Shown: positions 879-23,893 of the stretch, in pieces
How the letters are laid out: each line of letters begins with the position of its first letter
How positions within the stretch are numbered: the stretch's first letter is position 1
Source: Deltaproteobacteria bacterium
GTDB taxonomy: Bacteria; Desulfobacterota; Desulfobulbia; Desulfobulbales; Desulfurivibrionaceae
Assembly (NCBI GenBank): GCA_021811385.1
Contig: JAJZPC010000023.1
Span: forward strand, 1 to 35,317
Length of the DNA stretch: 35,317 nt
Direction of reading: 5' to 3'
Translations under genes and position numbers: made by a program
Notes under the pieces: model-generated
Database searches by the model: none
The model's input: only the letters and a program-made list of their open reading frames with translations
Told to the model about the DNA's origin: nothing

Positions 879-2525
879 TCAATCCACCACAACCCACCCC
901 AGCCCCCCTTCCCCCTCGCCCTGATATGCAGCCGCACGGTGATAGCCCTGACCTTCCGGGCCACCGGCGTCGAGGGCGAGCCGTTCGGCAGCGCGCTCAT
1001 TTGCGAAACGCACCAGAACATCCCATAATTCCATGGCGGGCTCCGGCGCGGCGAGGCCGATCCGGCGGCCGAAATATTCCCGCTGCCGGAGCGCCGGCGC
1101 CTTCTGCAAGGCGATGGTGTAGATCCCCTCCGGCACCGGCGTCACGGGACCCCAGTAGGCGGATTCCGGCAGGGCGGCCTTTACCCGGGCCAACTCCAGG
1201 CCGGTAATCTTCAGCCGGTAGAGGCTGGTGAAGCCGGGGGTGCCGGCAGGCTCCCGCTCCACCGGGAAGGCATCAAAAATATCCTGCCTGGTCAGGCTCC
1301 CCCGCCGCCACTCCTTGCGCACCGCAGGCAAACCGACAAAGGCCGCATCGACCTCCAGGGTTTTCACGGCGGCCCGAGCGGTGAGCAGGGCCATCTCCTT
1401 CCTGTTTTGATCGGCATGGAGATGGGTGAAGCCGTCGTTGAGAGCGGTCCGGTAGCTGTGCAAAATCCTCTTCACCTCCCTGTCGGTGGCCTCATCCACC
1501 GGTGTTTCCCCCTCGCGGTTCGGGATGAGGTAAAACGCACTGTGCCGGATGCATCTTTTTCGCAGATCATATTCGATGTCGAACCTGCCGATATTCTCCG
1601 CCTTGGCGCCGGCATGGATAATTGCCGTACCCCGCACCCGAAGAGGTTCCGCCATGACGGTATGGGTATGGCCCCCCAGGATCAAGTCGATGCCCTGCGT
1701 CTCCCCGGCCAGGCGAATATCCTCCTCTATCCCCAGATGGCTGACCAGGACCAGCAAATCGACTTCCCCCCGGTGTTGGGCGATGATCTCGCGGGCGACT
1801 TTCACACAATCAAAATCCGAGCGCAATTCCGGCATGCCGGGATAGAATTCCCCTTCGTACTGTTCATCCTTCTCATTCCAGGGCTTGGACACCAGGCCGA
1901 AAAAACCTATTTTCACCTGCCCCACCCGCAGGACGGCATAATCGGTCCAGCCCGGCAGCCTAGCGGCTTGGCCGCCGTAATTGCCTCCGGTCATTTTGGT
2001 GTTGGAAGCGAGAACGATTGCGGAGGGGTCGCGGCTGAAGGCCAGCAGCTCATCAATCCCCCAGGCGAAATCGTGGTTGCCGATGGTGCGCACATCGTAA
2101 TGCATCGCCTGGACTATCTCCCTGGTTACCAAGCCACGGGAAACCTCCTCGGCAATGGAGCCTTTTTCGTAGTCGTCCCCGGCATTGGTGAAGATCGCAA
2201 AAGGATTCTCCCTTCTCACCTGCTCGAAATAACCGCGCAGCCTCGCGACCGGACTCGATCCGCCCCGCACGGGATTATAGTTGGCATGAATATCCGAGAC
2301 ATGGACAAAGGAAATCTTCTGGGTTGCGGCGGCAACATCGCCGAACGGCCAGCGCGACGGATCCCGGGCAAAACCGCCTCCGGCCCCGCCGAGGGATGCT
2401 GTCCCGAAGGAAAACAAGCCTAAACAGGAAATGACGCAGGCCGCGAAGACATGGGCCCTCCCTCGTAGCTTCAGCCTGCGGATCGGCAAAACTCTCATCT
2501 TCTCGGCAACGATACTGTTCACCAT
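879..2525 (-). CDS. secreted 5'-nucleotidase-type metallophosphoesterase
   Basis: Bifunctional UDP-sugar hydrolase/5'-nucleotidase family protein, 548 residues, expected to remove phosphate from nucleotides outside the cytoplasm. The calcineurin-like metal site is complete: DIH (78-80), NAGDD (114-118), GNHD (149-152), SHLG (262-265) and GHTH (285-288). A C-terminal 5'-nucleotidase domain follows from about residue 350. The N-terminus is basic and then hydrophobic (VFAACVISCLGLFSFG, 26-41), a signal peptide or anchor. The ATG at 2525 has no good ribosome site; the ATG at 2498 is an alternative that keeps the signal. The gene converges on the response regulator gene and diverges from the metallohydrolase gene at 2788. 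A link to phosphate scavenging under the PhoB-like regulator is plausible but no Pho box is visible. Confidence 0.85.
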   Translation of the reverse strand: MVNSIVAEKMRVLPIRRLKLRGRAHVFAACVISCLGLFSFGTASLGGAGGGFARDPSRWPFGDVAAATQKISFVHVSDIHANYNPVRGGSSPVARLRGYFEQVRRENPFAIFTNAGDDYEKGSIAEEVSRGLVTREIVQAMHYDVRTIGNHDFAWGIDELLAFSRDPSAIVLASNTKMTGGNYGGQAARLPGWTDYAVLRVGQVKIGFFGLVSKPWNEKDEQYEGEFYPGMPELRSDFDCVKVAREIIAQHRGEVDLLVLVSHLGIEEDIRLAGETQGIDLILGGHTHTVMAEPLRVRGTAIIHAGAKAENIGRFDIEYDLRKRCIRHSAFYLIPNREGETPVDEATDREVKRILHSYRTALNDGFTHLHADQNRKEMALLTARAAVKTLEVDAAFVGLPAVRKEWRRGSLTRQDIFDAFPVEREPAGTPGFTSLYRLKITGLELARVKAALPESAYWGPVTPVPEGIYTIALQKAPALRQREYFGRRIGLAAPEPAMELWDVLVRFANERAAERLALDAGGPEGQGYHRAAAYQGEGEGGLGWVVVD

Positions 2526-2787: not shown

Positions 2788-4416
2788 ATGAAAAATCATC
2801 GAGGCAAAACGACCAAGGGTGCGGCAGTCTGCCTGATGCTGCTCGGTCTCTCCCTGTGCCCGGCACCGCCGGTCAACGCCCTGGAAAACGGCCGTTGGCT
2901 GGCCGGGGATTTTCACAACCACACCTTTCTCACCGATGGCGGCATCGCGGCGGAGGAAGTTTTCTCCCAGGCGTTCCGCTTTGGCCTCGACTGGTTCGCC
3001 AACTCCGAACATGGCGGCGCCTATGGCCGGGGCCCTGACGGCCGTCCCTGGCCCGCTGCCAAAGCCAACTTTCTCGGCGACCCGCCCACGGAAAAGATGT
3101 GGCGCTGGCAGTCCCTGCTCCAGTATTCCTTTCCCCTGGTCGAAAAAGCGCGCACGGCCCATCCGAAAAAACTGATTATCCAGGGCTATGAATGGAATAT
3201 CCCCAGCCATGAACATGCCAGCGTCGGCATCATCGATACGGCGGAGGAAGAAGGGATGGCCATCGCCCGCCACGAATACCTCTTCGACGGTGAGGACACC
3301 GGCTCCACAGCGGACCGCCACCTCGCGGTCGAGGGCAAACAATTACGGAATGACCATGCCAAAGCCGTGGCAGGCGCTGCCTGGCTTGAGGAGAATTACC
3401 GAAAAAGCGCGTACTGCGTGCTCAACCATCCCTCCAGGCGCCTGAAATACTCCGTTGGAGACATCCGGGATCTCAACGATGCCGCGCCGCATGTCGCCTT
3501 CGGCTTCGAAGGCTTTCCCGGACACCAAAAGGCCGGATCCAGAGGCAATTACGATCAGGGGGCTTTCCTGGACTCGGCCGGAAACGACATCACCGCCAGG
3601 GCCCGCACCCATGGCGGCGCCGACCCCATGCTGGCACGAATAGGCGGCACATGGGACGCACTGCTCGGCGAGGGACGCCGGTTTTTCGCCTTTGCCAATT
3701 CCGATTTCCACAATTCGGAAAACGATTTCTGGCCCGGCGAATACACGAAAACCCACACCTTTGTCCGCGACCAAAATCAGGATGGAGAGTATTCCCAGCT
3801 CGAATTGCTGGAGGGGATGCGCTCCGGAAACTCCTTTATCGTGCATGGCGACCTGATCAACCGACTGCGCTTCACCGCGCAATCCCGGGGGAAAATGGCG
3901 GAAATGGGCGACACCCTCCAGGCTGCGGCCGGAGGCGAGGTGACGATCACGATCAGCTTCAAAAGCCCGGCCCGAAACAACCATGGCGACGCGGTGGCCG
4001 TGGACCATATCGAGCTGATCGCCGGCGAGATGAGCGGCCGGGTTGCCAGGCTGCTGGAGGACGGCCTAACCCCGAACCCCGGCTACGAAAAAGACGGCAA
4101 CGAGACCACCAGGGTGATCGCCACCTTCACCGTCAAGGATTGGCAGTCCGCCGGAGAAACCGGGGCCCCGGGGAATGGGGGGAAGAAAACCTCCGGCAAA
4201 AACGGTTGGCGGACGATCCGCTACCAAGTCAAACAGCTCCGGCACGACATGTACTTTCGCCTGCGCGGAACCAACCTCCGTTGCGGGGTCGCCGAAGAAA
4301 CCGACAGCGAGGGCAACCCGCTGGCCGACGAGCTTCAGGGTCCGAACGACCAGGACAAGGCCTATGCCGATCTCTGGTTTTACTCCAACCCGCTCTTTAT
4401 TCGGGTATCCCGCTAA
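2788..4416 (+). CDS. secreted CehA/PHP-type metallohydrolase
   Basis: Metal-dependent hydrolase of the PHP superfamily, CehA/McbA-like, 542 residues. The PHP metal-binding pattern is visible: DFHNHT (41-46), SEHGG (73-77), GYEWNIPSHEH, LNHPSR and a late FANSDFHN. The rest of the C-terminus (from about 350) looks beta-rich and may be an extra domain. A signal peptide is likely (hydrophobic 12-24, probable cleavage after VNA at 29-31), so it should act in the periplasm or outside. The substrate cannot be told from sequence; family members cleave phosphate esters or carbamates. Start at 2788 is weakly supported (GCGGAA upstream) but gives the signal peptide directly. It ends just before a nested-hairpin terminator, which separates it from the GAK operon. 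Confidence 0.75.
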   Translation: MKNHRGKTTKGAAVCLMLLGLSLCPAPPVNALENGRWLAGDFHNHTFLTDGGIAAEEVFSQAFRFGLDWFANSEHGGAYGRGPDGRPWPAAKANFLGDPPTEKMWRWQSLLQYSFPLVEKARTAHPKKLIIQGYEWNIPSHEHASVGIIDTAEEEGMAIARHEYLFDGEDTGSTADRHLAVEGKQLRNDHAKAVAGAAWLEENYRKSAYCVLNHPSRRLKYSVGDIRDLNDAAPHVAFGFEGFPGHQKAGSRGNYDQGAFLDSAGNDITARARTHGGADPMLARIGGTWDALLGEGRRFFAFANSDFHNSENDFWPGEYTKTHTFVRDQNQDGEYSQLELLEGMRSGNSFIVHGDLINRLRFTAQSRGKMAEMGDTLQAAAGGEVTITISFKSPARNNHGDAVAVDHIELIAGEMSGRVARLLEDGLTPNPGYEKDGNETTRVIATFTVKDWQSAGETGAPGNGGKKTSGKNGWRTIRYQVKQLRHDMYFRLRGTNLRCGVAEETDSEGNPLADELQGPNDQDKAYADLWFYSNPLFIRVSR

Positions 4417-4515: not shown

Positions 4516-4639
4516 CCTCCGGATTCTAATGAAAAACTAACACGGCTCTAACCGGTTACTATCCTCGGCCGGGTACGGTCCTTAATATTCGGCGCCTTGG
4601 CGCCCTGCCATCATCCATCCATGAGAAGGGGAACAAAAC

Positions 4640-5188
4640 ATGTCCGGCAAAGAGATGAAATTCGAGAAAGTGATGTCCGCCAAGAATGCCGCTGATTTCC
4701 TTCGCGCCTTGGCTCAGGAGATCGAGCACGGCAACCTGGAGGAGTTGAAGGAATTCGACCTGGCCTTCGACGATTTCAAGAAGATGAAGCTCGAACTGAA
4801 GCGGGAGGGCGACCAGCTCCATCTGAAGGCCAAGGCGAAGATCGTCGCGGCAGGGATGGTCTGCGGCGAGGCGGCCGGTGACGAGGCGGAGGCCGACGGC
4901 GAGCCCAAGTACAAAACAGTGAAGAAGCGGATGGACAAGTGCTTCAAATCCATGGGCGAGGCGCTCAAGAAGGGGCTCATGCCCGAAAAGGGCGAGGTGG
5001 CTCTGTTCATTGCCGACTCGGAACTCATGGTGGGGTATCCGGGCCACGGCGACGAGCACTATGACCAATACGCCAAACTCTGTGTCCAGCTCAACGTGGC
5101 CTGCGAGAATGGCGACCTTGCGGCCATGCGGGAAAAATACGGCGAACTCAAGGCGATGAAAAAGCTCTGCCATGAGCAGTACAAGTAA
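4640..5188 (+). CDS. GAK system XXXCH small protein
   Basis: Small charged protein of 182 residues, first gene of the GAK operon. The C-terminus carries the Cys-His pair KKLCHEQYK (Cys177-His178) for which the XXXCH domain is named. The first 66 residues (MKFEKVMSAKNAADFLRALA region through LHLKAKAK) resemble the amphi-Trp protein encoded at 6520, with the same helix then KREGDQLHLKAKAK-type strand pattern. There are also Cys75, Cys100, Cys147 and Cys154 as read by eye. No signal peptide or membrane segment is present, so it is cytoplasmic. AAGGGG ends 9 nt before the ATG and supports the start. Role is unknown; small size plus neighbouring kinases and an ATP-grasp enzyme makes it a candidate substrate or carrier (inference). 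Confidence 0.8.
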   Translation: MSGKEMKFEKVMSAKNAADFLRALAQEIEHGNLEELKEFDLAFDDFKKMKLELKREGDQLHLKAKAKIVAAGMVCGEAAGDEAEADGEPKYKTVKKRMDKCFKSMGEALKKGLMPEKGEVALFIADSELMVGYPGHGDEHYDQYAKLCVQLNVACENGDLAAMREKYGELKAMKKLCHEQYK

Positions 5189-5230
5189 TTCCCGGGCCGA
5201 ACCGCTTGCGTAACTTCGCAGGCGACCTCC

Positions 5231-5264
5231 GCCGGCGCCGCGATTTTTTTTTGCGGCGGCCGGC
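5231..5264 (+). promoter_or_regulatory. GC-rich hairpin with a T9 loop, intra-operon
   Basis: GCCGGCGCCGC (5231-5241) pairs with GCGGCGGCCGGC (5253-5264) with one bulged G. The loop is GA followed by nine T residues (5244-5252). It sits in the 105-nt gap between the XXXCH and PHP-like genes, the largest gap in the operon. Placing a T run in a loop rather than after a stem suggests alternative folds (attenuation or processing), which is inference. Confidence 0.5.
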
Positions 5265-5293
5265 ACAGCCGAGATACGGAGCAGGCAGCAGCG

Positions 5294-6460
5294 ATGAAAC
5301 TGGTCAAGCCGAAACATAAGTCGGAAGTGGTTCCCCACGACCTGCCGGAGGCGATTCCGGAGGAGGTCACCGAGAGCGACGCGCAGCGTTTTTTCGCCAT
5401 CATCTCGACGGAACTGACCCCCGAGCAGATCCGGCTGGTACTCACCCCGGAGAAGACCTACCCCCGGCAGCAGGGGGTCATGGCCCTCCATTGGCATCCC
5501 GAATTCGTACCCATGGAGCTGATCGCGCAGCGCATCAACGCCACCTTCCCCAACCGGAAGGAGGAACTGATCATCCCCACCCAGCACAACATGCTGCTGA
5601 GCTACGGGGACTATAGCGGGACCGAGGTGGACTGCTATTCCCGGGGATTCAACCGCAAGGTGCAGTTGCTGCTGCACTTCGAGAAGAGCAGGCTTGAGCG
5701 GGCCGGGGTTCTCAAGGCGCAGCTGGCCCATACCCGCAATTACCGGGCCTCCCAGCTTTTCGACTTCATCCACACCATCACCAATCCGGTGGAGGAACGG
5801 CTCGACGAGGCGGCCGGAGAAACCGGGGCCGATGCGGAGCTGGTCGGCTTTGTCCGCATCTATGTGCGCAAACTCAACGAGCTGCTGGACCGCCACATGG
5901 ATCAGGTACCGCCGGACAGCATCAAGAACAAGCTGCTGCGCGACTTTTTCGAAGCCCTGCGCCCGGATTACGGCGATGCGGTCATCAACCGCGCCCAGGC
6001 CTTTCTCAAGGCGGTCAAGGAGATCGTCAAACGGAACTTTTCCCCCAAATATTTCTACCGCACCTCGGAGATCATCGAGGAAGCCCGCGGCCTGGGGGCG
6101 GGGGTGGTCATTCCCCATCCGGAGCAGTTCTGGCCGATCCTGCTGGCCGACTATGACGTGGACGGCTATGAGGTCTGGAACCCCCAGTCACGGGAGTACA
6201 CCGATTTTCTCATCTCCGTGCTCAACCGGAAGAACCGGGAAGCCGGCCCGTCAAAAAAACGGCTGCTGGTTTTCATGGGGGACGACACCCACATGAGCGA
6301 GAAGACCAGGCCGCCGCACGAGCGCGATCACCTCAAGGTCTCCCGGGAGATCGGGGTGCAACCGCCCTGGAGCGACCTGGCCATCCGCAAGAAACTGGTG
6401 GTGGCCCACATGGACAAACACGACGTGCTGGAAGAGTACAAGGCCAGACTGGCGGGATGA
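5294..6460 (+). CDS. PHP-like metallo-phosphoesterase of the GAK operon
   Basis: 388-residue cytoplasmic protein with a PHP-type metal site spread along the chain: HWHPE (66-70), IPTQHN (94-99), EVDCYS (111-116), LLHFE (126-130), VVIPHPEQFW (271-280), GYEVWN (291-296) and GDDTH (329-333). This order (HxH, then single His/Glu, late His-Pro and final D-x-H) is what PHP phosphoesterases show, although overall similarity to textbook members is weak and about 100 helical residues (140-250) separate the halves. No signal peptide. Start at 5294 follows GGAG at 5278-5281. Its place inside the cassette suggests it removes or transfers a phosphate in the same pathway; that is inference. Confidence 0.65.
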   Translation: MKLVKPKHKSEVVPHDLPEAIPEEVTESDAQRFFAIISTELTPEQIRLVLTPEKTYPRQQGVMALHWHPEFVPMELIAQRINATFPNRKEELIIPTQHNMLLSYGDYSGTEVDCYSRGFNRKVQLLLHFEKSRLERAGVLKAQLAHTRNYRASQLFDFIHTITNPVEERLDEAAGETGADAELVGFVRIYVRKLNELLDRHMDQVPPDSIKNKLLRDFFEALRPDYGDAVINRAQAFLKAVKEIVKRNFSPKYFYRTSEIIEEARGLGAGVVIPHPEQFWPILLADYDVDGYEVWNPQSREYTDFLISVLNRKNREAGPSKKRLLVFMGDDTHMSEKTRPPHERDHLKVSREIGVQPPWSDLAIRKKLVVAHMDKHDVLEEYKARLAG

Positions 6461-6519
6461 TCCTGGGTTGTAACTATTGAACCTTCTTACGAAAAAGACG
6501 AACCATTCGAGGCATGCGC

Positions 6520-6792
6520 ATGTCCACCAAAAAGTTTGACTACGAATCACTGCAGGACGCCCACTCCATCAAGAGCTACCTGGTCTCCCTGATCGACTCC
6601 CTCGAGAAGGGGCGCATCATCCTCAAGTCCGACGGCGAGGAGCTGGCCATGCGGGTGGATGATCTGATGAAGTTTTCGGTGCAGGCCAAGAAAAAGGACG
6701 GGCAAAACAAGCTGTCCATAAAATTATCCTGGTCGGAGAGCAGACCGGTCATCAAGGACGAGCGCGCCTCCTCCATGAGCATCGGCTCGTGA
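6520..6792 (+). CDS. amphi-Trp domain small protein
   Basis: 90-residue protein with the amphi-Trp pattern: an N-terminal FDYES strand, a helix (YLVSLIDSLEKGRI), then alternating strands ending in KLSIKLSWSES where the Trp sits. Family members are small, cytoplasmic and of unknown function, and several sit near GAK genes as I recall. GAGG at 6509-6512 is 7 nt from the ATG at 6520 and only 1 nt from the ATG at 6514, so I start at 6520. The stop is 13 nt before the next start, implying co-translation. It looks related to the N-terminal half of the XXXCH protein at 4640. Confidence 0.75.
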   Translation: MSTKKFDYESLQDAHSIKSYLVSLIDSLEKGRIILKSDGEELAMRVDDLMKFSVQAKKKDGQNKLSIKLSWSESRPVIKDERASSMSIGS

Positions 6793-6805
6793 TGGCGCCC
6801 GCACC

Positions 6806-8455
6806 ATGCTGACCGCCGCGCTCAAGGAAAATCTCAGCTTCATGGTCGTCGAGGTGACGCGCCAGCTCGACGAGACCTTCGATCTCCTGGCAAACGGCGG
6901 GGCAGCCGCCTTCCAGAAGATCAACAGCCGGGACGACTACATCGACAACCTCAAGACGGTGATTGAGAACTGCTGTTTCACCACCTTGGGCGAGGCCAAG
7001 GCCATCACCCAGCGGGAGAGGGACAGCATCCAGGCAACCCACACCATCTGCGTCAACCTGGAGCGCATCGGCGACTTCTGCGTCAGCGCGGCGGACCAGC
7101 TCCACTACCTCAACAATCACGCCATCCTCCAGCATTTCGATTATCAGCGGATCTTCGACCTCCTTGCCGAACACCTGCAGGCGGTGATCCCGGTGCTCAA
7201 GAAAGGCGACATGGGCAAGGCCCTCGCCATCTGCCGGGCCGAAAACCAGATCGACGTTATCTACAAGGAAAACTTCGACAAGATCATGGAGGCGCTCCGG
7301 AGCGGCAAGGAGATCGAAAATCTGATCACCGTGCTCTTCATCTTCCGCTATCTGGAGCGGATGGGCGATTCGTTGCTCAATATCGGCGAGGCCTTGCTCC
7401 TTTCCATCCTGGGCGAGAAGATCAAGATCGAACAGTTCCAGGCCCTGGAGGAAACTCTCAGCAAGTCGGGATTGCGCGCCGACCTGGCCGAGGTGGAGTT
7501 TTCCTCCATCCTGGGCAGCCGTTCCGGCTGCCGGATCCGCAAGGTTCAGGGCCATGACGGGCAGCCGCTGATCGCCCCCCAGACCCAGAGCAGCATCTTC
7601 AAAGAGGGCAACAAGGAGAAGATCCTGGCCGAGAAGAAGAACCTGGAGCGCTGGAACGAGATCTTCCCCGGTCTGACCCCCAGGCTGTTCAGCCATCAGG
7701 AATCGGAGGAGACCGCCTCCCTGCTCGTGGAGTTTCTCCCCGGCCGGACCTTCGAGGCCATTCTCCTCAAGGGCGACCCCGACGAGTTGGACACGGTCTG
7801 CACCCTGCTGCACGCCACGGTCCTGGAGATCTGGCAGCGGACCAAAAATGAGGTCCAGGTCAAGGCCAACTTCATCCCGCAGATCATGGCCCGGATGCAC
7901 AGCGTGCTCAGCGTGCATCCCGACTTCCACCGGGTCCGCCAGGACATCGGTTCCTCGGAGGTCATGCCCACCGACGAGCTGCTGGCCAAGTGCCGCCGCA
8001 TCGAAGAGAAACTGGCCGCTCCCTTCTCGGTCTTCATCCACGGCGATTTCAACGTCAACAACATCATCTACAACGCCGCCCGGGAGCGCATCCAGCTCAT
8101 CGATCTCTACCGCTCCCGCGAGGCGGACTACATCCAGGACGTGTCGGTGTTCATCGTCTCCAACTTCAGGCAGCCGGTCTTTCAGACGCATCTGCGGGAG
8201 CGGCTCAACTGGATCACCCAAAATATGTACCAGATGGCGAAGGATTTCGCCGTCGAGCAGGACGATGAAACCTTCGAGGTGCGCATGGCCCTGGCCTTGG
8301 CCCGCTCCTTTTACACCTCCACCCGTTTTGAGTGGAACAACGAGTTTGCCCATGAGATGTTTTTGCGCTCCCACTTTCTGCTGGAAAAGGTGCTGGCCCA
8401 TCAGGACAAGCCATGGCGCACTTTTTCCCTGCCGTCCGGCATCATGTACTACTGA
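6806..8455 (+). CDS. PhoU-like / aminoglycoside-phosphotransferase-like fusion protein
   Basis: 549-residue two-domain protein. The N-terminal part (1-205) is helical and PhoU-like, with the paired metal motifs NLERIGD (84-90) and YLERMGD (182-188). The C-terminal part (about 255-520) is an APH/choline-kinase-like fold: the catalytic loop is IHGDFNVNN (411-419, His412, Asp414, Asn419) and the metal-binding Asp is in LIDLYRSREAD (431-441, Asp433). An N-lobe with lysines precedes it (KEGNKEKILAEKK, 266-278). This suggests a small-molecule kinase coupled to a phosphate-sensing or metal-binding module. Start is the ATG at 6806, only weakly preceded by a ribosome site, consistent with coupling to the upstream gene. 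The substrate is unknown; antibiotic resistance is unlikely given the operon. Confidence 0.75.
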   Translation: MLTAALKENLSFMVVEVTRQLDETFDLLANGGAAAFQKINSRDDYIDNLKTVIENCCFTTLGEAKAITQRERDSIQATHTICVNLERIGDFCVSAADQLHYLNNHAILQHFDYQRIFDLLAEHLQAVIPVLKKGDMGKALAICRAENQIDVIYKENFDKIMEALRSGKEIENLITVLFIFRYLERMGDSLLNIGEALLLSILGEKIKIEQFQALEETLSKSGLRADLAEVEFSSILGSRSGCRIRKVQGHDGQPLIAPQTQSSIFKEGNKEKILAEKKNLERWNEIFPGLTPRLFSHQESEETASLLVEFLPGRTFEAILLKGDPDELDTVCTLLHATVLEIWQRTKNEVQVKANFIPQIMARMHSVLSVHPDFHRVRQDIGSSEVMPTDELLAKCRRIEEKLAAPFSVFIHGDFNVNNIIYNAARERIQLIDLYRSREADYIQDVSVFIVSNFRQPVFQTHLRERLNWITQNMYQMAKDFAVEQDDETFEVRMALALARSFYTSTRFEWNNEFAHEMFLRSHFLLEKVLAHQDKPWRTFSLPSGIMYY

Positions 8456-8477
8456 AATTTCACAAAGAGGTGTTTCC

Positions 8478-9353
8478 TTGAAAAAAATAGGTGTTATCGG
8501 CATTCCCGGCGGCTGGTCGTCCGAGAAACTCGCCGATGCGGTGGCGGAGCGCACCGGTTTCCGCCTGCTGATGGATCCGGGCGCGGTGCGGCTCGATATG
8601 CCCTCGGGCCGGGCGTTCTCCGGCGGGGTGGAGCTCAATTCCCTGGACGGTCTGATCATCAAGAAGATCGGCACGGACTACTCCCCGGACCTGCTCGACC
8701 GGCTGGAGATCTTCCGCTTCCTGGCCGGACGGGGGCTGTCGATCTTTTCCAATCCGCTCAACATCATCCGGGTGCTGGACCGGCTCACCTGCACCATCAC
8801 CCTGCAGCTCGCCGCAATTCCCATGCCGCCGCTGACCATCACCGAGGATATCGATGCGGCCATGGACGCGGTGGCGACATATGGAGAGGCGGTTTTCAAA
8901 CCGCTTTACTCCACCAAGGCGCGGGGCATGATTGTGCTGCGGCCCGACAGGGAGACCCGGGCGGCCATCGAGAAATACAAAGCCGCGCACCGGATCATGT
9001 ACATCCAGAAGAAGATCGAGCTGAACGGCCGTGATCTGGGAGTAGTCTTCCTGGGCGGCCGGTATCTCACCACCTACGCCCGTACCTGCCGCAACGACTC
9101 TTGGAATACCACCACCGCCTCCGGCGGCAGGTACCAGCCCCACGAGCCGCCGGAGGAGATCATCGCCCTGGCGCATAAAGCCCAGGCCCCCTTCGGCCTC
9201 GACTTCACCTGCGTTGATGTAGTGGAGACCGCCGAGGGTCCTCGGGTGTTCGAGGTCTCCGCCTTCGGCGGTTTCCGGGGCATTCAGGAGGCCTGCGGCA
9301 TTGACGCGGCCAAACATTATGCGGACTATGTCTGCGGGAGGATTGGGGCATGA
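8478..9353 (+). CDS. GAK system ATP-grasp enzyme (RimK-like)
   Basis: 291-residue ATP-grasp ligase-fold protein. ATP-grasp landmarks: AVFKPLYSTKARGM (138-151, Lys141 as ATP-binding lysine with a following flexible loop), MYIQKKIE (174-181) as the hinge, VFLGGRYLTTYAR (190-202) and the metal-binding end GLDFTCVDVVE...RVFEVSAFGGFRGIQ (240-270, Asp247, Glu259). Such enzymes join a carboxylate to an amine or thiol via an acyl phosphate. I start at TTG 8478 because AAAGAGG (8464-8470) sits 7 nt before it and the Rossmann-like KKIGVIGIPGG follows at once; the frame is open far upstream only as a shadow of the previous gene. It overlaps the next gene by 4 nt (ATGA). Confidence 0.82.
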   Translation: MKKIGVIGIPGGWSSEKLADAVAERTGFRLLMDPGAVRLDMPSGRAFSGGVELNSLDGLIIKKIGTDYSPDLLDRLEIFRFLAGRGLSIFSNPLNIIRVLDRLTCTITLQLAAIPMPPLTITEDIDAAMDAVATYGEAVFKPLYSTKARGMIVLRPDRETRAAIEKYKAAHRIMYIQKKIELNGRDLGVVFLGGRYLTTYARTCRNDSWNTTTASGGRYQPHEPPEEIIALAHKAQAPFGLDFTCVDVVETAEGPRVFEVSAFGGFRGIQEACGIDAAKHYADYVCGRIGA

Positions 9354-10438
9354 AGGGAAACGCCACGGAACGTCACGAGATGGTGCAGCGCCTCCGCACG
9401 GAGTTTCCGGCTGCCCTGCAGCTTGTTCTCGCTTTTGATGACTGCCGGATCGGGGTGCGGACCAATTCCCTCGCCCTGACCGATACCCTGCGGGAGTACT
9501 TCAGCGATTTTCTTTCGGACGCCCCGGCCTGGGACATGCTGGTCACCGCCCATGAGGCGGAGCCGCCTCAGCTTCCCCATGCCTTCATGACCAAGGAGCC
9601 GGACCCGGGCAAGAACAAGATCAAGGAAGAGTTTGTCGATCTGGCCGACGGCCGCGTGGTGCGTAAGCGGCTTACCGGCATGGTCTTCGTCTTCGGCGGC
9701 GAAGACAGTCTGGCCATCGGCCCCTGCCTGGACAACGCCAACCAGGTGATCAACTTCATCAACAACCGCTTCATCAGCTGGAAACTCCGGCAGGGATGCC
9801 TGCTGGGCCATGCCGCCGGCATCGGCCTCCATGGCTGCGGGCTGGCGCTGGCCGGCTTCTCGGGCATGGGCAAGTCCACCCTGGCTCTGCACCTGATGAG
9901 CCGGGGCGCGGACTTCATCAGCAATGACCGGGTGCTGCTCCGGGAGGATGGCGCGGGCCTCTTCCTCTACGGCGTGGCCAAGCTGCCCCGCATCAATCCC
10001 GGCACCGCGCTCAACAACCCCGACCTGGCCGGGGTCATCCCGCCCCAAGACCGGGAACGGTTCGCCGGCCTCGCCCCTGAGGCCCTCTGGATCCTGGAGC
10101 ACAAGTACGACGTGTTCCTCGACCACTGCTTCGGCCCCGGCCGATTTACCCTGGCCGCCTCCATGGCCGGGCTGGTGATCCTCAACTGGCAACGAAGCCC
10201 GGCCCCTACCGTGTTGCGAGAGGTGAATATCCGGCAGCGGCGGGACCTTCTCCCCGCCTTCATGAAATCCGCGGGTCTTTTCTTCCTGCCGGAGCACGGC
10301 GAGGAGATCGATCATTCCGAGGAGGTCTATCTGGAGCGCCTCGTCAAAACACGGGTCTACGAGATCAGCGGCGGCATCGATTTCGACCGGGCCTGCGATG
10401 CCTGCCTGGGAATCCTGGCCGAATGCCGCGACCGCTGA
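9350..10438 (+). CDS. HprK-related kinase (type B, GAK system)
   Basis: 362-residue protein related to HPr kinase/phosphorylase. The P-loop GFSGMGKST is at 169-177, followed by the HprK-like FISNDRVLL (189-197, Asp193) that would act as catalytic base. A divergent N-terminal domain (1-150) replaces the usual HprK N-domain. HprK proteins phosphorylate a Ser in a small carrier protein; here no HPr is present, so the target may be one of the small proteins of the operon (inference). Its ATG overlaps the stop of the ATP-grasp gene by 4 nt, so the two are translationally coupled. GGGAG at 9336-9340 supports the start. Confidence 0.82.
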   Translation: MKGNATERHEMVQRLRTEFPAALQLVLAFDDCRIGVRTNSLALTDTLREYFSDFLSDAPAWDMLVTAHEAEPPQLPHAFMTKEPDPGKNKIKEEFVDLADGRVVRKRLTGMVFVFGGEDSLAIGPCLDNANQVINFINNRFISWKLRQGCLLGHAAGIGLHGCGLALAGFSGMGKSTLALHLMSRGADFISNDRVLLREDGAGLFLYGVAKLPRINPGTALNNPDLAGVIPPQDRERFAGLAPEALWILEHKYDVFLDHCFGPGRFTLAASMAGLVILNWQRSPAPTVLREVNIRQRRDLLPAFMKSAGLFFLPEHGEEIDHSEEVYLERLVKTRVYEISGGIDFDRACDACLGILAECRDR

Positions 10439-10460
10439 CAAACGAAACGGGCATTATCGC

Positions 10461-11654
10461 ATGAAGATCAAGGTATGCAGGGAGATAACCCTGCCGGACC
10501 CCGTTCGGGTGGCACTCTACCGGCGCAGCCCCGAACTGGGGCCGCGGCTGCTCTTCTTCAGCGGCGGCAGCGCCCTGCGGGGAGTGAGCCGGGAACTGAT
10601 CCACTACACCCACAATTCATGCCACATCATGACCGCCGTCGATTCCGGCGGCAGCTCAGCCACCCTGCGGCAGGCGTTTTCCATGCCCTCCATCGGCGAT
10701 ATCCGGGCCAGGCTCATGGACCTGGCCGATCAGAGCGTACAGGGCAACCCGGAGATGTACCGGCTCTTTGCCTACCGCTTTCCCAAGGAGACGCAACAGG
10801 AAGTGCTCCTCGCCGAGCTAAGGAGCATGGTGGCGGGACGGCACCGGCTGGTGTCGGTCATACCCGACCCCTTGCGCAAGATTGTCCGCCATCACCTGAA
10901 GATCTTCCAGGCCCGGATGCCGGAGAACTTTGCTCTGGCCGGAGCCAGTGTCGGGAACCTTGTGCTCACTGCCGGGTATCTGGATAACGGCCGGCACCTC
11001 GACACGGTGATCTTCCTCTTTTCAAAACTGGTCGAGGCACGGGGCACGGTCCGGCCGGTGCTCAACCGTTATCTTCACTTGGGGGCCTTGCTTGCCGACG
11101 GACAGGTGGTGGTGGGCCAACATCTCCTCACCGGCAAGGAGGTTCCTCCCCTGGAGAAGAAGATCGTTCACCTCTTTTTGAGCATGACAACCTCTCCCAC
11201 CAGCAAGGGCGCGGTCTGGCCACGGGTGCGCGACAAGCTCTCCAAGCTGATCCATTCCGCCCAACTGATCTGCTATCCCATGGGAAGCTTCTATTCCAGT
11301 ATCATTGCCAGCTTGTTGCCCGAGGGGGTGACCGAGGCCATCCAGCACAACATCTGCCCAAAGGTCTATATCCCCAGCATGAACAGGGATCCTGAGGCTG
11401 TTGGCCTGACACTCATGGACCAAATCGAAACCCTGCTGCGCTACCTGAAGAAAAACAACCCTGACATTCCAACCCGTCAGGTATTGAACTGTGTTCTGGT
11501 TGACTCAAAAAATGGAATCTATTCCGGGGAAGTGGACCAAAAACGGCTTCTGGAATTGGAAATTCAGTTAATTGACTGTCCGCTGGTCAGTGAAGAAAGC
11601 GCCCCCTACTGCGAACCGAGATTGCTGGTCCCCCTGCTGCTCTCGCTTTCGTAG
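10461..11654 (+). CDS. GAK system CofD/YvcK-like protein
   Basis: 397-residue protein of the CofD/YvcK fold. Signatures: FSGGSALRG (33-41), AVDSGGSSATLR (59-70), ALAGASVGNLVLTAGYL (158-174) and, late in the protein, CYPMGSFYSSIIASLLPEGV. CofD transfers a phosphate-containing group from a nucleotide-activated donor to 7,8-didemethyl-8-hydroxy-5-deazariboflavin (F420 pathway) and YvcK/GlmR-like members bind UDP-sugars. No other F420 genes are here, so an F420 role is not supported. The ATG at 10461 lies 22 nt after the previous stop; a second in-frame ATG upstream would overlap the HprK-like gene and is less likely. Confidence 0.8.
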   Translation: MKIKVCREITLPDPVRVALYRRSPELGPRLLFFSGGSALRGVSRELIHYTHNSCHIMTAVDSGGSSATLRQAFSMPSIGDIRARLMDLADQSVQGNPEMYRLFAYRFPKETQQEVLLAELRSMVAGRHRLVSVIPDPLRKIVRHHLKIFQARMPENFALAGASVGNLVLTAGYLDNGRHLDTVIFLFSKLVEARGTVRPVLNRYLHLGALLADGQVVVGQHLLTGKEVPPLEKKIVHLFLSMTTSPTSKGAVWPRVRDKLSKLIHSAQLICYPMGSFYSSIIASLLPEGVTEAIQHNICPKVYIPSMNRDPEAVGLTLMDQIETLLRYLKKNNPDIPTRQVLNCVLVDSKNGIYSGEVDQKRLLELEIQLIDCPLVSEESAPYCEPRLLVPLLLSLS

Positions 11655-11679
11655 CCAGATCATGACCGGAGAGGAAAGA

Positions 11680-11907
11680 ATGAATAAGCAGCACGGTGGG
11701 CAACAACCCGACCCAAAAAGCCTGGAAAGCATTGTCGACGATCTGGCCATGCAATTCCGGGTTCCGCAGGAAATCATCAGACCGTTATTACTATGCGCCT
11801 ATCAGGAGCTCATGACAGAGGCGGTGGTCAAGGATTTCGTCTCCATCTTTGCCATGCGCATGGTGCGTGACCGATTTGCAGCAAAGGGGAATGGCGGCGA
11901 GTGGTAA
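11680..11907 (+). CDS. DUF3562-like small three-helix protein
   Basis: 75-residue protein, last gene of the GAK operon. The tail ALCAYQELMTEAVVKDFVSIF followed by AMRMVRDRF fits the DUF3562 pattern of a three-helix bundle thought to dimerise. AGAGGA at 11669-11674 lies 5 nt before the ATG at 11680 and fixes the start; the gap to the CofD-like gene is 25 nt. No catalytic residues, signal or membrane segment. It may be an assembly or scaffold partner for the operon, which is inference. DUF assignment is from memory of the pattern. Confidence 0.6.
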   Translation: MNKQHGGQQPDPKSLESIVDDLAMQFRVPQEIIRPLLLCAYQELMTEAVVKDFVSIFAMRMVRDRFAAKGNGGEW

Positions 11908-12030: not shown

Positions 12031-13653
12031 TCAGACAAAGAGATCGGTCAGCTCGAATCTCTCCCCGTCAAAAAGGCCCAGGTCGGTGATTTTGAGGGCC
12101 GGGATCACGGGCAGGGCCAGAAAGGCCATGGTCATGAAGGGGGTCTGCAGGAAGCAGCCGTTCTCCTTGACCCCCTGCTCAATCCCGCTGTAGTTTCGGG
12201 CCATTTCCTCGCAGCTGCCCAACCCCATGAGGCCTGCCACCGGCAGCGCCATCAGGCGCTCCTCCCCGCCCTGCACGAAACAGATGCCGCCCCCGCTTTC
12301 CCCGAGCAGGTTCACGGCCCGGGCCAGATCCGTGTCGTTGCAGCCGACGGCAATGAGGTTGTGGGAGTCGTGGGCAATGGAAGAGGCCATGGCCCCGCGC
12401 TTCAAGCCAAAGCCCCGGACAAAGCCGATGGCCGGGGGCGCCGGCGCATAGCGGTTCTGGACCAGGATCTTCAACAGATCCGCGCACGGATCCGCCTCGA
12501 CCACGGTGCTGCCCAAAGGTACGGGGTGAGACCCGGCGCCGGTGACAATCCGGCCGTCCGTCACCTCGATGACCTTGACCCGCCCACCCCTTGCCTGCAC
12601 CTGCAGCTGCCCGGCCGTAAGCAGGGCCGCGCTGAAGCGGTTGATCGGCACAGGCGGCGCGGCTTCAAAAAGGACTTGCCCCCTGTCGCTGACCATCTCG
12701 CCATTGATCCAGACACCGCTGACCTCCAGACTCTCAAGGTCATCCACCATGATGAAATCGGCCGGATCCCCCTTTTGCAGCAACCCCACCCCGAGGTGGT
12801 AATGGCGCACCGGATTGACGCAGGCGCATTGCAGCAGGTCAAAAAGATCATGCCCCAGGCGGAGTCCCTGTTTGACCAGGAGGTTGATGTGGCCGCGGGC
12901 CAGGTCCGTTGGTTTCAGATCATCGCTGCAGAGCATGCATTGCCCGGGATGGCTGGTGACGAGCGGATGCAACACCTCGAAATCGCGGGCGCTCGAGCCC
13001 TGACGGAGCATGATCTTCATGCCCAGGGCCAGTTTCTCGTAACACTCCTCCAAATTGCCCGATTCATGATCGGTGCTGATCCCCGCCTGCACGTAGGCGA
13101 TCAGCGCCTCCCCCCGCAACCCCGGAGCGTGGCCGTCCACCCTTTTGCCCAGCTTCGCGGCCGCACCAAGCTTGGCCATGACCTCCGGATCCCGGCCGAT
13201 GACCCCGGGAAAATTCATCATCTCGGCAAGAAAGAAGATGTCCTCCCGCCGGAGCAGCGCTTCCACCTCCCGGGCGTCAAGGGTGGCCCCGGAGTTTTCA
13301 AACCCGGTGGCCGGCACGCAGGAGGGGGCGCCGAAATAAAACTTCAATGGCGCCTGCTTGCCGCTGTCGATCATGAAGTCGATGCCAGGGATGCCGAGGA
13401 CATTGGCGATCTCATGGGGGTCGGCCACCACGGCCACGGTGCCGTGGGTCACCGCTTTGGCGGCAAAGGCGGCCGGGGTGAGCATGGAGCTTTCGATATG
13501 GATATGGGAATCGATCAGCCCCGGCAGAATAAAGGGGCCTTTGGTCGCAGGGTCGGGAAGGATGTCGATGATCCGCCCCTGGTCGATCACCAGGGTGCCG
13601 GGGAATTGCCTGCGGGCCACGGGGTCAACAACAATGCCGGAGATCTTTTTCAT
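12031..13653 (-). CDS. ade: adenine deaminase
   Basis: Converts adenine to hypoxanthine and ammonia in purine salvage; cytoplasmic amidohydrolase of 540 residues, within the family norm of about 540-600. The metal site is visible in PGLIDSHIHIESSMLTP, followed by VADPHEIANVLG, DGHAPGLRGEAL and the late CSDDLKP. The C-terminal adenine deaminase domain carries the SIAHDSHNLIAVG motif. I start at the ATG at 13653, which has GGAG 5 nt upstream and overlaps the stop of the upstream gene by one base (TGATG); a GTG at 13656 is the alternative. It is the last gene of a four-gene overlapping minus-strand operon. Its end is 27 nt from the orphan repeat. Confidence 0.93.
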   Translation of the reverse strand: MKKISGIVVDPVARRQFPGTLVIDQGRIIDILPDPATKGPFILPGLIDSHIHIESSMLTPAAFAAKAVTHGTVAVVADPHEIANVLGIPGIDFMIDSGKQAPLKFYFGAPSCVPATGFENSGATLDAREVEALLRREDIFFLAEMMNFPGVIGRDPEVMAKLGAAAKLGKRVDGHAPGLRGEALIAYVQAGISTDHESGNLEECYEKLALGMKIMLRQGSSARDFEVLHPLVTSHPGQCMLCSDDLKPTDLARGHINLLVKQGLRLGHDLFDLLQCACVNPVRHYHLGVGLLQKGDPADFIMVDDLESLEVSGVWINGEMVSDRGQVLFEAAPPVPINRFSAALLTAGQLQVQARGGRVKVIEVTDGRIVTGAGSHPVPLGSTVVEADPCADLLKILVQNRYAPAPPAIGFVRGFGLKRGAMASSIAHDSHNLIAVGCNDTDLARAVNLLGESGGGICFVQGGEERLMALPVAGLMGLGSCEEMARNYSGIEQGVKENGCFLQTPFMTMAFLALPVIPALKITDLGLFDGERFELTDLFV

Positions 13654-14336
13654 CACTTCTCCGTTTTCCGGGCGATATACACCACATGCCGCCGCCCGCC
13701 CCGGCCAGGGCGTTGGCGGTTCACCGAAAACCCGGCCGCCTGCAGCCGTTTTTCAAAGGCCGCGTCCGGATCCTCGGACCACACCGCGAACACCCCGCCC
13801 GGCTTCAGGGCGTTTCGGCTTGATTCCAGCGCCTTCCTGCCGTACAGATAATCGCCCCTGCCCTGGTCCCCCTCGTAGGGGCCTTCGTACAGGTCGAGGA
13901 TGATGGCGTCAAAGCGCTGCTCCCTGCCCTGCTTCGCCGCCTCAGCAATCACCTTGGCCACATCGCTGATCTTCACCGTGACCCGGGGGTCGTCCACCGC
14001 CCCGTTGGTTAATTGGGCAATGGGCCCCTGGCACCAGGTGACCATGATCGGATTGAGTTCCGCCACCACCACCTCGGCCTCGGCAGGGAGATGGTCCAGG
14101 GCCGCCTTGAGCGTATACCCCATGCCCAGTCCGCCCACCAGCACCCTGGGCCTCTTGATCCGCTGCAAGGGGGCGCAGGCCAGCTCCGAGAGAACGATCT
14201 CGGAGCGATTGGCCGAGGAGGTCATCAGCACCCTGCTGTCGATGGTGATGAGAAAATCCGTCTCGCCCCGCTGCCGCAGATCAAGGAGCCCCTCGTCGGT
14301 ATCAATGCTGTCCACTATTCGCCATGGTTGCGCCAT
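13653..14336 (-). CDS. spermidine-synthase-like methyltransferase-fold protein
   Basis: 227-residue Rossmann-fold protein of the spermidine synthase family. It shows the S-adenosyl-binding glycine motif VLVGGLGMGYTLKAAL, the acidic VVVAELNPIM, and FDAIILDLYEGP, typical of polyamine aminopropyltransferases and their relatives. It is shorter than standard SpeE (about 280) and lacks the N-terminal beta-domain, so it may not make spermidine. The ATG at 14336 directly follows the ywbE stop (14337-14339) with GGAG upstream. Its stop overlaps the start of ade. Confidence 0.75.
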   Translation of the reverse strand: MAQPWRIVDSIDTDEGLLDLRQRGETDFLITIDSRVLMTSSANRSEIVLSELACAPLQRIKRPRVLVGGLGMGYTLKAALDHLPAEAEVVVAELNPIMVTWCQGPIAQLTNGAVDDPRVTVKISDVAKVIAEAAKQGREQRFDAIILDLYEGPYEGDQGRGDYLYGRKALESSRNALKPGGVFAVWSEDPDAAFEKRLQAAGFSVNRQRPGRGGRRHVVYIARKTEK

Positions 14337-14893: not shown

Positions 14894-16120
14894 TCAGCCG
14901 GACTGGCCCAAGCCGTCCGCCATAAGCAGGGTCTCAAGGCAATGCTCCCGGATACCGTAAAACTCCTTGATCCCCCGGATCTGGGCCAGCAGCTCCGCCT
15001 GCCTCGCCGCCCCCTCCCTCTTCACCCCCAGGATCATCTTGTTCTTGCTCGTGTGTTCCAGGGAAACGAACTCGAAGATCTGGGTCTCGTAGCCCGATGC
15101 CTCAAGGAGCAGCCCGCGCAGGGAGTCGGTGACCATCTCCGCTTCCTGGCCCATATGGATGCCGTGTTTGAGCATGGGTTTGAGCAGCTCGGGGCTGTGC
15201 ATCTGGGGACGGATCTGCTTGTGGCAGCACGGCGCGCACATGATGATGGAGGCCCCGGAGCGGATGCCGAGGTGGATGGCGTAATCCGTGGCCATGTCGC
15301 AGGCGTGCAGGGCGATCATGATGTCGATTCCCTTTGGCGTGTAGCTCCGGATGTCGCCCCGGACAAAGGAGAGGGTGTCGAGGTGCAGCCTCTGGGCCGC
15401 CTTGGCGCACAGATTGACAAGATCCTCCCGCAACTCCACCCCGGTCACCGTGGCGGTGAGCCCCAGGCTGGCGCGCAGATAGTCCTCCATGGCAAAGGTG
15501 AGGTACCCCTTGCCCGAGCCGAAATCAACCACCCGCACCAACGCCTGCTCCTTGAGCTTGGCATCCCCAATGGCGTGGTCCATAACCTCGATGAACTTGT
15601 TGATCTGCTTCCACTTGCGCGCCATGGAGGGGATCAACTGGTGCTGCGCGTTGACAACCCCCAACTCCTTGAGAAACGGCCGCCCGAGATCGAGAAAACG
15701 CTCCTTGGCGCGGTCATGCTCCTGGGGGGCGATCTCCCTCACCGCCCCCTTGCCCCGCTGCAGGGTGCACTTGCCCTTCTTGCTCCTGGACAACTGGATA
15801 TCCTCACCCACGGTCTGCAGATGCGCATTGTTGAACGAGGTGGCGCACAGCTCGCGGATGGCGGCGATGCCTGCGGGGATGGAGAGGTTTTTGGTGATGT
15901 CCCTGGTCTGGTAGCGGTAGAGAAAGGAGAGGTGTTCCCGCCCCTTCAGGGTGAGCCGCCGGACAAAGACCCGGTCCAACCCCGGTTCCGTACCGCAGTA
16001 TTTGCCCAAGATGAGTTTGACAAAGGTATTGCCGGCCAGACATTCCCCCAGCAGGCTGAAAAAAATCTCGCTCTGGCCCTCCATCCCTTGTACCCCTGTT
16101 TGCGTCTCAGTCGTCATCAC
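14894..16120 (-). CDS. class I SAM-dependent methyltransferase (Methyltransf_32-like)
   Basis: 408-residue protein. The methyltransferase half (about 190-370) contains VVDFGSGKGYLTFAMEDYL (SAM-binding motif I), TGVELREDLVN (acidic motif II), ALHACDMATDYAI and CAPCCHKQI, the Cys-Cys-His pattern of GSTCD-type methyltransferases. The N-terminal 150 residues are unlike any domain I recognise. No signal peptide. RNA or protein methylation is likely; the target is unknown. It lies 66 nt upstream of the ywbE operon in the same orientation and may head it. Confidence 0.75.
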   Translation of the reverse strand: MMTTETQTGVQGMEGQSEIFFSLLGECLAGNTFVKLILGKYCGTEPGLDRVFVRRLTLKGREHLSFLYRYQTRDITKNLSIPAGIAAIRELCATSFNNAHLQTVGEDIQLSRSKKGKCTLQRGKGAVREIAPQEHDRAKERFLDLGRPFLKELGVVNAQHQLIPSMARKWKQINKFIEVMDHAIGDAKLKEQALVRVVDFGSGKGYLTFAMEDYLRASLGLTATVTGVELREDLVNLCAKAAQRLHLDTLSFVRGDIRSYTPKGIDIMIALHACDMATDYAIHLGIRSGASIIMCAPCCHKQIRPQMHSPELLKPMLKHGIHMGQEAEMVTDSLRGLLLEASGYETQIFEFVSLEHTSKNKMILGVKREGAARQAELLAQIRGIKEFYGIREHCLETLLMADGLGQSG

Positions 16121-16992: not shown

Positions 16993-17067
16993 TGGTGGGC
17001 GATACTGGGATCGAACCAGTGACCCCTGCCGTGTGAAGGCAGTGCTCTCCCGCTGAGCTAATCGCCC
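16993..17067 (-). tRNA. tRNA-Val (CAC anticodon)
   Basis: Reading the minus strand, GGGCGAT at the 5' end pairs with ATCGCCC at the 3' end, followed by the encoded ACCA tail. The D arm (TAGCTCAGCGGGAGAGCA), an anticodon stem CTGCC/GGCAG around the 7-nt loop TTCACAC, and the T arm GGTTCGATCC are all present. The anticodon is CAC, which reads GUG valine. Length is 75 nt including CCA. No selenocysteine or suppressor features. Confidence 0.95.
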
Positions 17068-21397: not shown

Positions 21398-21404
21398 TGT
21401 CAGG

Positions 21405-23866: not shown

Positions 23867-23893
23867 GCTGAATCCTTATGCTTCCCTGAATAC

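Follow-up and report, generated by a model that had tools for sequence, protein, structure and literature searches.

A complete GAK (Grasp And Kinase) cassette is located in the window, i.e., the whole stretch of 35,317 nucleotides analyzed here (contig JAJZPC010000023.1, positions 1 to 35,317, of assembly GCA_021811385.1 from a deltaproteobacterium of the Desulfurivibrionaceae), and it probably constitutes a PhoB-controlled phosphate-stress module and, as such, a part of the Pho regulon. The sequences support that this operon and those of many relatives are preceded by direct repeats of the PhoB type, with a period of 11 bp, and that in part of the relatives the operon is situated among pst, phoU, phoB, phosphonate, or lipid-remodeling genes. 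Low phosphate would cause PhoB to activate the operon, whose products would act in the cytosol as a phosphate-stress response unit. This connection to phosphate is absent from an earlier note, which had read the cassette from the bare sequence. So far, GAK has been named but linked to neither a condition nor a role, and a literature search by system and family names found no paper on the system or its function. With PhoB control, it would gain a condition, namely phosphate limitation, as well as a regulator and a few candidate substrates (the amphi-Trp and XXXCH proteins), and the role of GAK becomes directly testable because the operon apparently shares its switch with genes for phosphate shortage. 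It is suggested that phosphate-poor anaerobes keep, beside Pst uptake and phosphorus-free lipids, an extra unit of several enzymes for phosphate stress, one of which is a PhoU-fused kinase.

All eight plus-strand open reading frames (ORFs) listed in the earlier note were found as a tight cluster at 4640-11907. The first encodes an XXXCH protein (4640..5188; TIGR04358, 99.3 bits, cut-off 40), followed by a PHP-like protein of unproven fold (5294..6460), an amphi-Trp protein (6514..6792; TIGR04354, 65.9 bits, cut-off 31; PF20068, 34.9 bits), a PhoU-APH fusion predicted to be a kinase (6806..8455; PF01895, 78.3 bits, cut-off 23.5; PF01636, 40.9 bits, cut-off 23.2), the GAK ATP-grasp enzyme, which is RimK/MptN-like (8478..9353; TIGR04356, 453.1 bits, cut-off 300, scored from 8484), the HprK-related kinase B (HprK-B; 9350..10438; TIGR04355 or HprK_rel_B, 525.2 bits, cut-off 200), a GAK CofD-like protein of the YvcK type (10461..11654; TIGR04357 or CofD_rel_GAK, 507.2 bits, cut-off 340), and a small, lineage-specific DUF3562/three-helix dimerization protein (11677..11907; PF12085, 27.6 bits, cut-off 26.3; NF046112, 24.5 bits, cut-off 25). 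In gene order, the intergenic gaps are 105, 53, 13, and 22 nt, a 4-nt overlap, and again 22 and 22 nt, assuming that the ATP-grasp gene starts with the TTG at 8478, immediately 5′ of which lies AAAGAGGTG, resembling a ribosome-binding site. The claim of a complete cassette is borne out by XXXCH, ATP-grasp, HprK_rel_B, CofD-like, and amphi-Trp proteins all scoring far above the curated NCBIfam cut-offs, and the PhoU-APH and DUF3562-like labels hold as well. The PHP-like label, by contrast, has no Pfam or NCBIfam model behind it; the one hint of PHP is that conserved His, Glu, and Asp residues follow one another in a fitting order in the alignment. Hydropathy revealed no membrane or export segment in any of the eight proteins.

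Upstream of this operon, four direct repeats on the plus strand (CTAAT at 4526, CTAAC at 4537, CTAAC at 4548, and CTATC at 4559) form a Pho-box-like array with an 11-bp period (4526..4563) that ends 76 bp before the XXXCH start. For comparison with other loci, one genome per species was scanned with an HprK-B alignment; the best 80 of 427 relatives were kept, which together with the window makes 81 loci, a sample that leans to close relatives for this reason. The upstream region could be judged in 61 of them. When 5-mer direct repeats were counted without presupposing a motif, period 11 was found in 35/61 and period 22 in 25/61 upstream regions, compared with 4 to 16 of 61 for the other periods between 8 and 23. 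Confined to −200..+10, repeats at period 11 occurred in 26/61 regions versus 7.7 ± 2.6 (maximum 14) in 200 shuffles. Within 200 nt, they occurred in 42.6% of the GAK upstream regions versus 19.1% of 596 others, the values for other periods being 9.6-25.2%.

The Pho box of the E. coli type (CTGTCAT repeats) proved to be the wrong consensus (4/61 regions at 11/14 matches versus 0.93 expected, none higher). In the output of that scan, a TGTNAC form was spotted and then tested; the published consensus was consulted only afterwards. Perfect TGTNAC pairs 5′ of GAK operons were spaced by 5 nt in 15/61 and by 4 nt in 2 regions, but by none of eight other gaps between 2 and 11 (0/61); shuffles gave 0.00 at gap 5. 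The box of PhoB from D. vulgaris (DVU1083), validated by electrophoretic mobility shift assay, is described in the available part of the original report as repeats of (c/t)GT(n)AC (PMC3333781), and a PhoB-bound site is also reported in the accessible text of a second paper (PMC6456213). The published form, YGTNAC-N5-YGTNAC, was found without mismatch upstream of 17/61 GAK operons and of 21/613 ORFs from the flanks, nine of these 21 being GAK's own intergenic region. In the window, no match without mismatch was found, and the sole match with one mismatch is at 25914.

What the window carries instead is the CTAAY variant. CTAAC-N6-CTAAC was present in 8/61 upstream regions, including that of the window, and absent at each of the eleven remaining gaps between 2 and 13; this count is partly post hoc because the variant was first spotted in the same loci. 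Its occurrence before pstS is an independent check. In the genomes of ten relatives, the triple CTAAY form with no more than one mismatch had 54 matches versus 19 for the reversed control, and 16 of these 54 regions were opened. In 5/10 genomes it preceded pstS or a pst operon: pstS in G297, G298, G299, and G306 (identified by PF12849 in G297 and G306, and by position and sequence start in G298 and G299) and the pst operon in G302. It further preceded a DUF47 (PhoU-like) gene in G301 and GAK in G303, and in G305 it lay close to two genes, one PiT-like and one DUF47-like. A triple box in L218 (G306:C308) is near genes of possible phosphonate type, whose starts resemble what we take to be PhnW/PhnX-type genes. 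Taken together, either box was present in 29/61 GAK upstream regions, corresponding to 17/39 clusters at 70% HprK-B identity. Control values were 2/635 ORF upstream regions, 2/347 of those with at least 100 nt free upstream, and a mean of 0.11 (maximum 1) in 200 shuffles of the 61 regions. The control regions include one with a pst operon (L152), whose box matches beside pst at 4725 and 6148 fell outside the ORF count.

The gene neighborhood also points toward phosphate. The first gene of the contig (139..840, plus strand; the reading frame runs open up to the contig start, and 139 is probably the ATG) encodes a response regulator of the OmpR family and PhoB type, whose top match in NCBIfam is TIGR02154 (PhoB), albeit below its cut-off (231.9 versus 296.2 bits). 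At the corresponding place of locus L052, whose HprK-B is 91% identical, pstB-phoU-phoB are followed by homologs of the window genes; a pst operon at this place of the window would be invisible because the contig begins inside the region. Another pst-phoU set of the window genome (2.6 Mb, estimated 75% complete) is on contig C52, which can be ruled out as the missing upstream part, its phoU being situated midway in a 30-kb contig. Across the loci, many of the recurring genes outside the core were phosphate-related: pstC/pstA, pstB, stand-alone phoU, PhoB-type regulators, and phosphonate transport genes (PhnC over cut-off in L117, with L099 alike). L059 contains the C-P lyase genes phnG, phnH, and phnI and an alkaline phosphatase near GAK, and L070 has homologs of part of these. 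Other recurring neighbors encode an OlsF-like ornithine-lipid synthase, a GT4 fusion, an LMW phosphatase/ArsC-like protein, and PhoH. While PstB, PhoU, and PhnC scored above curated cut-offs, some labels are based on scores below them (PhoB 223-268 of 296, OlsF 392 of 620, ArsC 108.5 of 174). In D. alaskensis G20, lipid genes proven for phosphate limitation include, according to the available part of the study, those for OlsF and an Agt-type group-1 glycosyltransferase (PMC5193443), which does not imply family identity with the neighbors found here. The GT4 fusion, a protein of 610-906 aa whose N-terminal half has PHP-like motifs and whose other half is a GT4 glycosyltransferase, recurs beside GAK in L084, L088, L092, L097, L099, L107, L117, L119, L121, L127, and L128; perhaps it is an enzyme of phosphorus-free glycolipids.

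Controls for these neighbors were 40 random-position regions of 20 kb from 8 GAK genomes, the number per genome being chosen by hand (L135/L138 and L149/L150 overlap); 689 flank ORFs were thus set against 688 control ORFs, L172 being included in the latter number but not in the counts. PhoU was found 5 versus 1 times, PstB 4 versus 1, PstC/A 10 versus 1, PhoB-type regulators (>250 bits) 6 versus 0, and PhnC (>400 bits) 2 versus 0, all three control ORFs of the Pst/PhoU kind lying in one region. The corresponding numbers were 8 versus 0 for OlsF, 11 versus 0 for the GT4 fusion (>800 bits), 8 versus 0 for the LMW phosphatase (>200 bits), and 8 versus 0 for PhoH. These comparisons are to be read with the flank copies scoring high because the profiles were built from them, with thresholds chosen after the scores had been seen, and with only the Pst/PhoU/PhoB/Phn class being a prior choice, since OlsF, GT4 fusion, LMW phosphatase, and PhoH were picked for their recurrence. 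In G161, a GAK CofD gene directly follows pstA-pstB-phoU and is not accompanied by HprK-B or other GAK parts.

Several results weigh against assigning the cassette to the Pho regulon. Neither box was found in 32/61 upstream regions, and of the 16 opened places with a triple CTAAY box, 8 had no Pst, PhoU, PhoB, DUF47, PiT, or GAK gene according to our own profiles. Besides the post hoc element in the count of the CTAAY variant, CTAAY-N6-CTAAY is not enriched in the window genome (4 places, 2 of them at 4526-4563, versus 9 for the reversed control pattern), so that the place of these repeats speaks, not their number; of the remaining places, one is inside a called ORF (C63) and one is seemingly intergenic (C80). 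No CTAAY repeat precedes pstS of the pst operon on C52; D. vulgaris likewise has a pst set without a Pho box, one of two, as far as described in the accessible text (PMC3333781). At the level of loci, the enrichment of Pst/PhoU/PhoB neighbors was modest (11/81 GAK loci versus 1/40 control regions, with profiles made from flank copies). Away from complete GAK sets, no Pst/PhoU neighbor was seen at 6/7 opened places of CofD-like genes without HprK-B (9 are known) or at the ten opened places of XXXCH genes; our own choice of ORFs labeled the CofD-like gene in 4/7 and the XXXCH gene in 5/10 of these stretches. Finally, the available part of the D. vulgaris study does not name GAK among the PhoB targets (PMC3333781), the presence of GAK in that organism not having been tested. 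Two side observations may be added. In the genus g70 (L248, L249, L252, L253, L254), a GAK-type CofD gene occurs without HprK-B; judging from sequence starts, genes near several of these presumably correspond to yidC, jag, and mnmE, and in L249 (G235) a PiT-like gene (97 bits) is nearby. In L225 (4260-4820; the genome of L055), a gene with an XXXCH domain adjoins genes for a PiT-like phosphate transporter and a DUF47-like protein, both named from sequence starts.

The cassette itself is conserved well beyond the lineage of the window. Most of the 80 relatives are labeled Deltaproteobacteria or sulfate reducers and a few Zixibacteria, Nitrospinota, Nitrospirae, Phycisphaerae, Spirochaetia, Lambdaproteobacteria, or Alphaproteobacteria, and because the same arrangement is found in relatives labeled as several phyla, it is not due to chance. 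Its usual order is PHP-like, amphi-Trp, PhoU-kinase, ATP-grasp, HprK-like, and CofD-like, with XXXCH being optional. Counting only loci long enough to be judged, and with partners found by our own profiles, the ATP-grasp enzyme was present in 77/78, PhoU-APH in 65/67, the upstream amphi-Trp protein in 63/67, the PHP-like protein in 55/60, the CofD-like protein in 58/69, and a downstream amphi-Trp gene in 36/61 loci. XXXCH was present in 30/46 full-context loci and lacking in 16. The earlier note had counted XXXCH among the defining parts and the amphi-Trp, PhoU-APH, and PHP-like genes among the additions; these frequencies do not fit that division. Its expectation that the genes are linked elsewhere fits the recurring gene order, but not the division of the set between two loci in G277 and G213 or the solitary CofD-like and XXXCH genes. 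The DUF3562-like gene was found in only 4 ORFs, those of the window, L052, L053, and L054. In four loci (L045, L067, L074, L093), PhoU-APH, PHP-like, or CofD-like genes are fragmented in the contigs, possibly by assembly errors or decay. Among 297 genomes of the phylum, HprK_rel_B exceeded its cut-off in 20, and the GAK ATP-grasp enzyme was found (E ≤ 1e-70) in 21 (20 over cut-off), namely the same 20 and G118. GAK CofD (E ≤ 1e-70) occurred in 25 genomes, 16 with and 9 without HprK-B, and XXXCH (E ≤ 1e-8) in 21, 13 with and 8 without. Thus, ATP-grasp and HprK-B are a near-obligate pair, and CofD-like and XXXCH proteins can stand without both. The sole genome with the ATP-grasp enzyme but no HprK-B over cut-off (L255, G118:C235) also has a PHP-like gene, and its GAK part is followed by minus-strand genes of another kind.

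Both kinases look active, judging from their intact motifs. The P-loop Lys, the upstream His, and the following Asp, which are catalytic residues in HprK/P, were kept in 81/81 HprK-B proteins, and the HGD motif and second Asp of the APH domain in 66/66 aligned PhoU-APH proteins. No HPr domain was found in ten proteins scanned with Pfam. In the alignment of 58 PHP-like proteins (mean column identity 64%), H59, H61, E63, H91, E104, H121, H268, E286, D323, and H326 (numbered along the aligned stretch) are invariant. Neither NCBIfam nor Pfam gave a family match for the window protein, nor Pfam for the 58 relatives, and no solved structural relative was found. Comparison by hhalign with the PHP-like half of the neighboring GT4 fusions yielded a nonsignificant match of 41 columns (probability 0.3, E 0.18), within which the PHP-type motif falls. 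The preferred, though tentative, mechanism is a cytosolic phospho-relay with the amphi-Trp proteins as carriers. Two kinases, the PhoU-fused one of the APH type and that of the HprK type, would phosphorylate the small amphi-Trp proteins, the PHP-like protein would take the phosphate off, the ATP-grasp enzyme would attach an amino acid, and the YvcK-like protein would sense the level of a nucleotide-sugar. HprK/P becomes a phosphorylase, stimulated by inorganic phosphate, according to the part of the source available (PMC4393010), and a switch of this kind, if it can be transferred by analogy to the GAK enzyme, would suit a phosphate-stress unit.

Almost as probable, and likewise tentative, is a small-molecule pathway. 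Here, kinase, YvcK/CofD-like protein, and ATP-grasp enzyme would, under Pho regulation, build either a small metabolite that spares or stores phosphorus or a tail resembling a peptide, and the amphi-Trp and XXXCH proteins would be the carriers. The ATP-grasp enzyme is closest to the ligases RimK, MptN, and LysX, its nearest solved chains being of the LysX/RimK type, and its pairing with HprK-B in 20/21 genomes is consistent with a shared pathway, as are the OlsF-like neighbors and the GT4 fusions. However, the metal motif of the ATP-grasp enzyme is E-V-S in 76/77 proteins, not the E-x-N of RimK, and ten annotated recurring neighbor clusters held no further pathway enzyme, although no search for CofC was made. 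The CofD-like protein argues against it as well. While it matches the broad CofD family of Pfam (PF01933, 127 bits), which agrees with part of the earlier note, the transferase function proposed there is weakened: at E ≤ 0.01, NCBIfam yielded only CofD_rel_GAK and YvcK (TIGR01826, 115 bits, below cut-off), and no CofD-transferase model. The solved chains matched were five, all UPF0052 or uncharacterized (including 2o2z and 2hzb), with UPF0052 at 2e-19; these UPF0052 structures are presumably YvcK. The description of TIGR01826 gives YvcK as a binder of UDP-GlcNAc, and we know of no transferase reaction for this family. With the protein being of the YvcK type, a CofD-transferase or F420-like pathway was dropped as the first choice.

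A more elaborate form of the phospho-relay, which is rather unlikely, would have GAK sense phosphate in the cytosol as a second relay parallel to PhoR-PhoB. Through a kinase/phosphorylase switch, the HprK-type enzyme would read the balance of inorganic phosphate and ATP, and the PhoU-fused kinase would couple the relay to Pst, the transporter. The output would be phosphate, perhaps together with a ligated amino acid, borne by a family of as many as three amphi-Trp proteins, one of them having a former cytochrome c′-like sensor half.

The latter would be the XXXCH protein, which consists of a divergent amphi-Trp half at the N-terminus and a half resembling cytochrome c′/b562. The N-terminal domain scored 24.1 bits with TIGR04354, i.e., below the cut-off of 31, and hhalign related XXXCH to amphi-Trp with 90% probability (E 1.5e-6). 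That the protein senses heme or a metal in the cytosol, its b562/c′-like bundle feeding a redox signal into the system through the invariant Met and His, is unlikely. This notion is in line with F123, M130, and H178 being the only invariant residues across 38 sequences, CH being kept in 37/38, and matches at E ≤ 1 of PF01322 to 14/38 (best 7.6e-6) and of PF07361 to 8/38 aligned proteins, as well as of a PDB cytochrome c′ profile to the C-terminal half (E 0.0032). Most cytochrome-type E-values were weak, however, the heme-attachment motif CXXCH occurred in 0/38 proteins (the first Cys is missing in all 38 and replaced by Lys in 34), a hydrophobic N-terminus was not seen in any of them, and many full-context loci do without the protein. 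Lack of the motif and of an exported N-terminus also ruled out a true c-type cytochrome. The amphi-Trp protein encoded 3′ of HprK-B/CofD often has a Lys/Ala/Pro-rich, histone-H1-like tail (L060, L065, L073, L074, L110, and others), which could bind polyanions.

That the Pho-type neighbors and boxes are incidental, with GAK serving the cell envelope or redox metabolism under an OmpR-family regulator with an 11-bp repeat, is quite unlikely: the upstream regions without a box, the cytochrome-like half of XXXCH, the XXXCH genes that lie away from GAK near other genes (some of them presumably menaquinone-related, going by sequence starts), and the direct repeats that OmpR-family regulators often bind would fit this explanation, but the CTAAY variant precedes pstS, pst, phoU, or phoB are near GAK in 11/81 loci, and the YGTNAC box is the very one validated for PhoB in the available part of PMC3333781.

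The remainder of the window contains genes of other kinds. Between the regulator gene and the cassette, two neighbors outside the core encode a UshA/SoxB-like metallophosphoesterase (879..2525, minus strand; PF00149, 40 bits; TIGR04486 and NF041198 below their cut-offs) and a CehA/McbA-type metallohydrolase (2788..4416, plus strand; NF038032, 75.6 bits, cut-off 80), of which only a fragment was found elsewhere, in L052. Downstream and on the minus strand are genes for an adenine deaminase (12031-13656, over cut-off), a spermidine-synthase-like protein (13653-14336), and a methyltransferase (14894-16120), followed by tRNA-Val(cac) (16993-17067). A type I restriction-modification set (19652-26269) comprises HsdS (19652-21430), HsdM (22418-23866), and HsdR (23894-26269), all on the minus strand, with an ORF of 338 aa without family label between HsdS and HsdM. 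A protein with a Beta-lactamase2 domain (26509-28197) and a bacterial DNA topoisomerase (29728-31809) are also encoded on the minus strand.

Compared with known systems, the window exceeds the cut-offs of all five GAK and amphi-Trp models (TIGR04355-04358 and TIGR04354) in one linked cluster, and it differs from GAK as modeled in that the usual set adds the PHP-like protein and the PhoU-APH fusion and can dispense with XXXCH. With the Pho regulon of Desulfovibrio, GAK loci share the geometry of the box as given in the available parts of two reports (PMC3333781, PMC6456213), 17/61 having the perfect consensus, whereas the window carries the CTAAY variant instead of the box described in the former (PMC3333781). 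HprK-B and HprK/P have the P-loop, upstream His, and following Asp in common, which are aligned and invariant in HprK-B, but only 48 residues of HprK-B align to the best HprK/P chain (E 0.0007), and features peculiar to HprK-B are a conserved KLPRINPGT and a long N-terminal part. The CofD-like protein shares PF01933 and the matches to UPF0052 structures with YvcK/GlmR and CofD, and yet forms a subfamily of its own (TIGR04357). The C-terminal half of XXXCH, with mostly weak PF01322 and PDB matches, may be related in fold to class II cytochromes c (c′), from which it differs in lacking CXXCH. Like PhoU proteins, the GAK fusion has PhoU stretches, two according to Pfam, with structural matches to 4q25 and 1t72; what sets it apart is the fused APH-type domain with its intact HGD motif and Asp.

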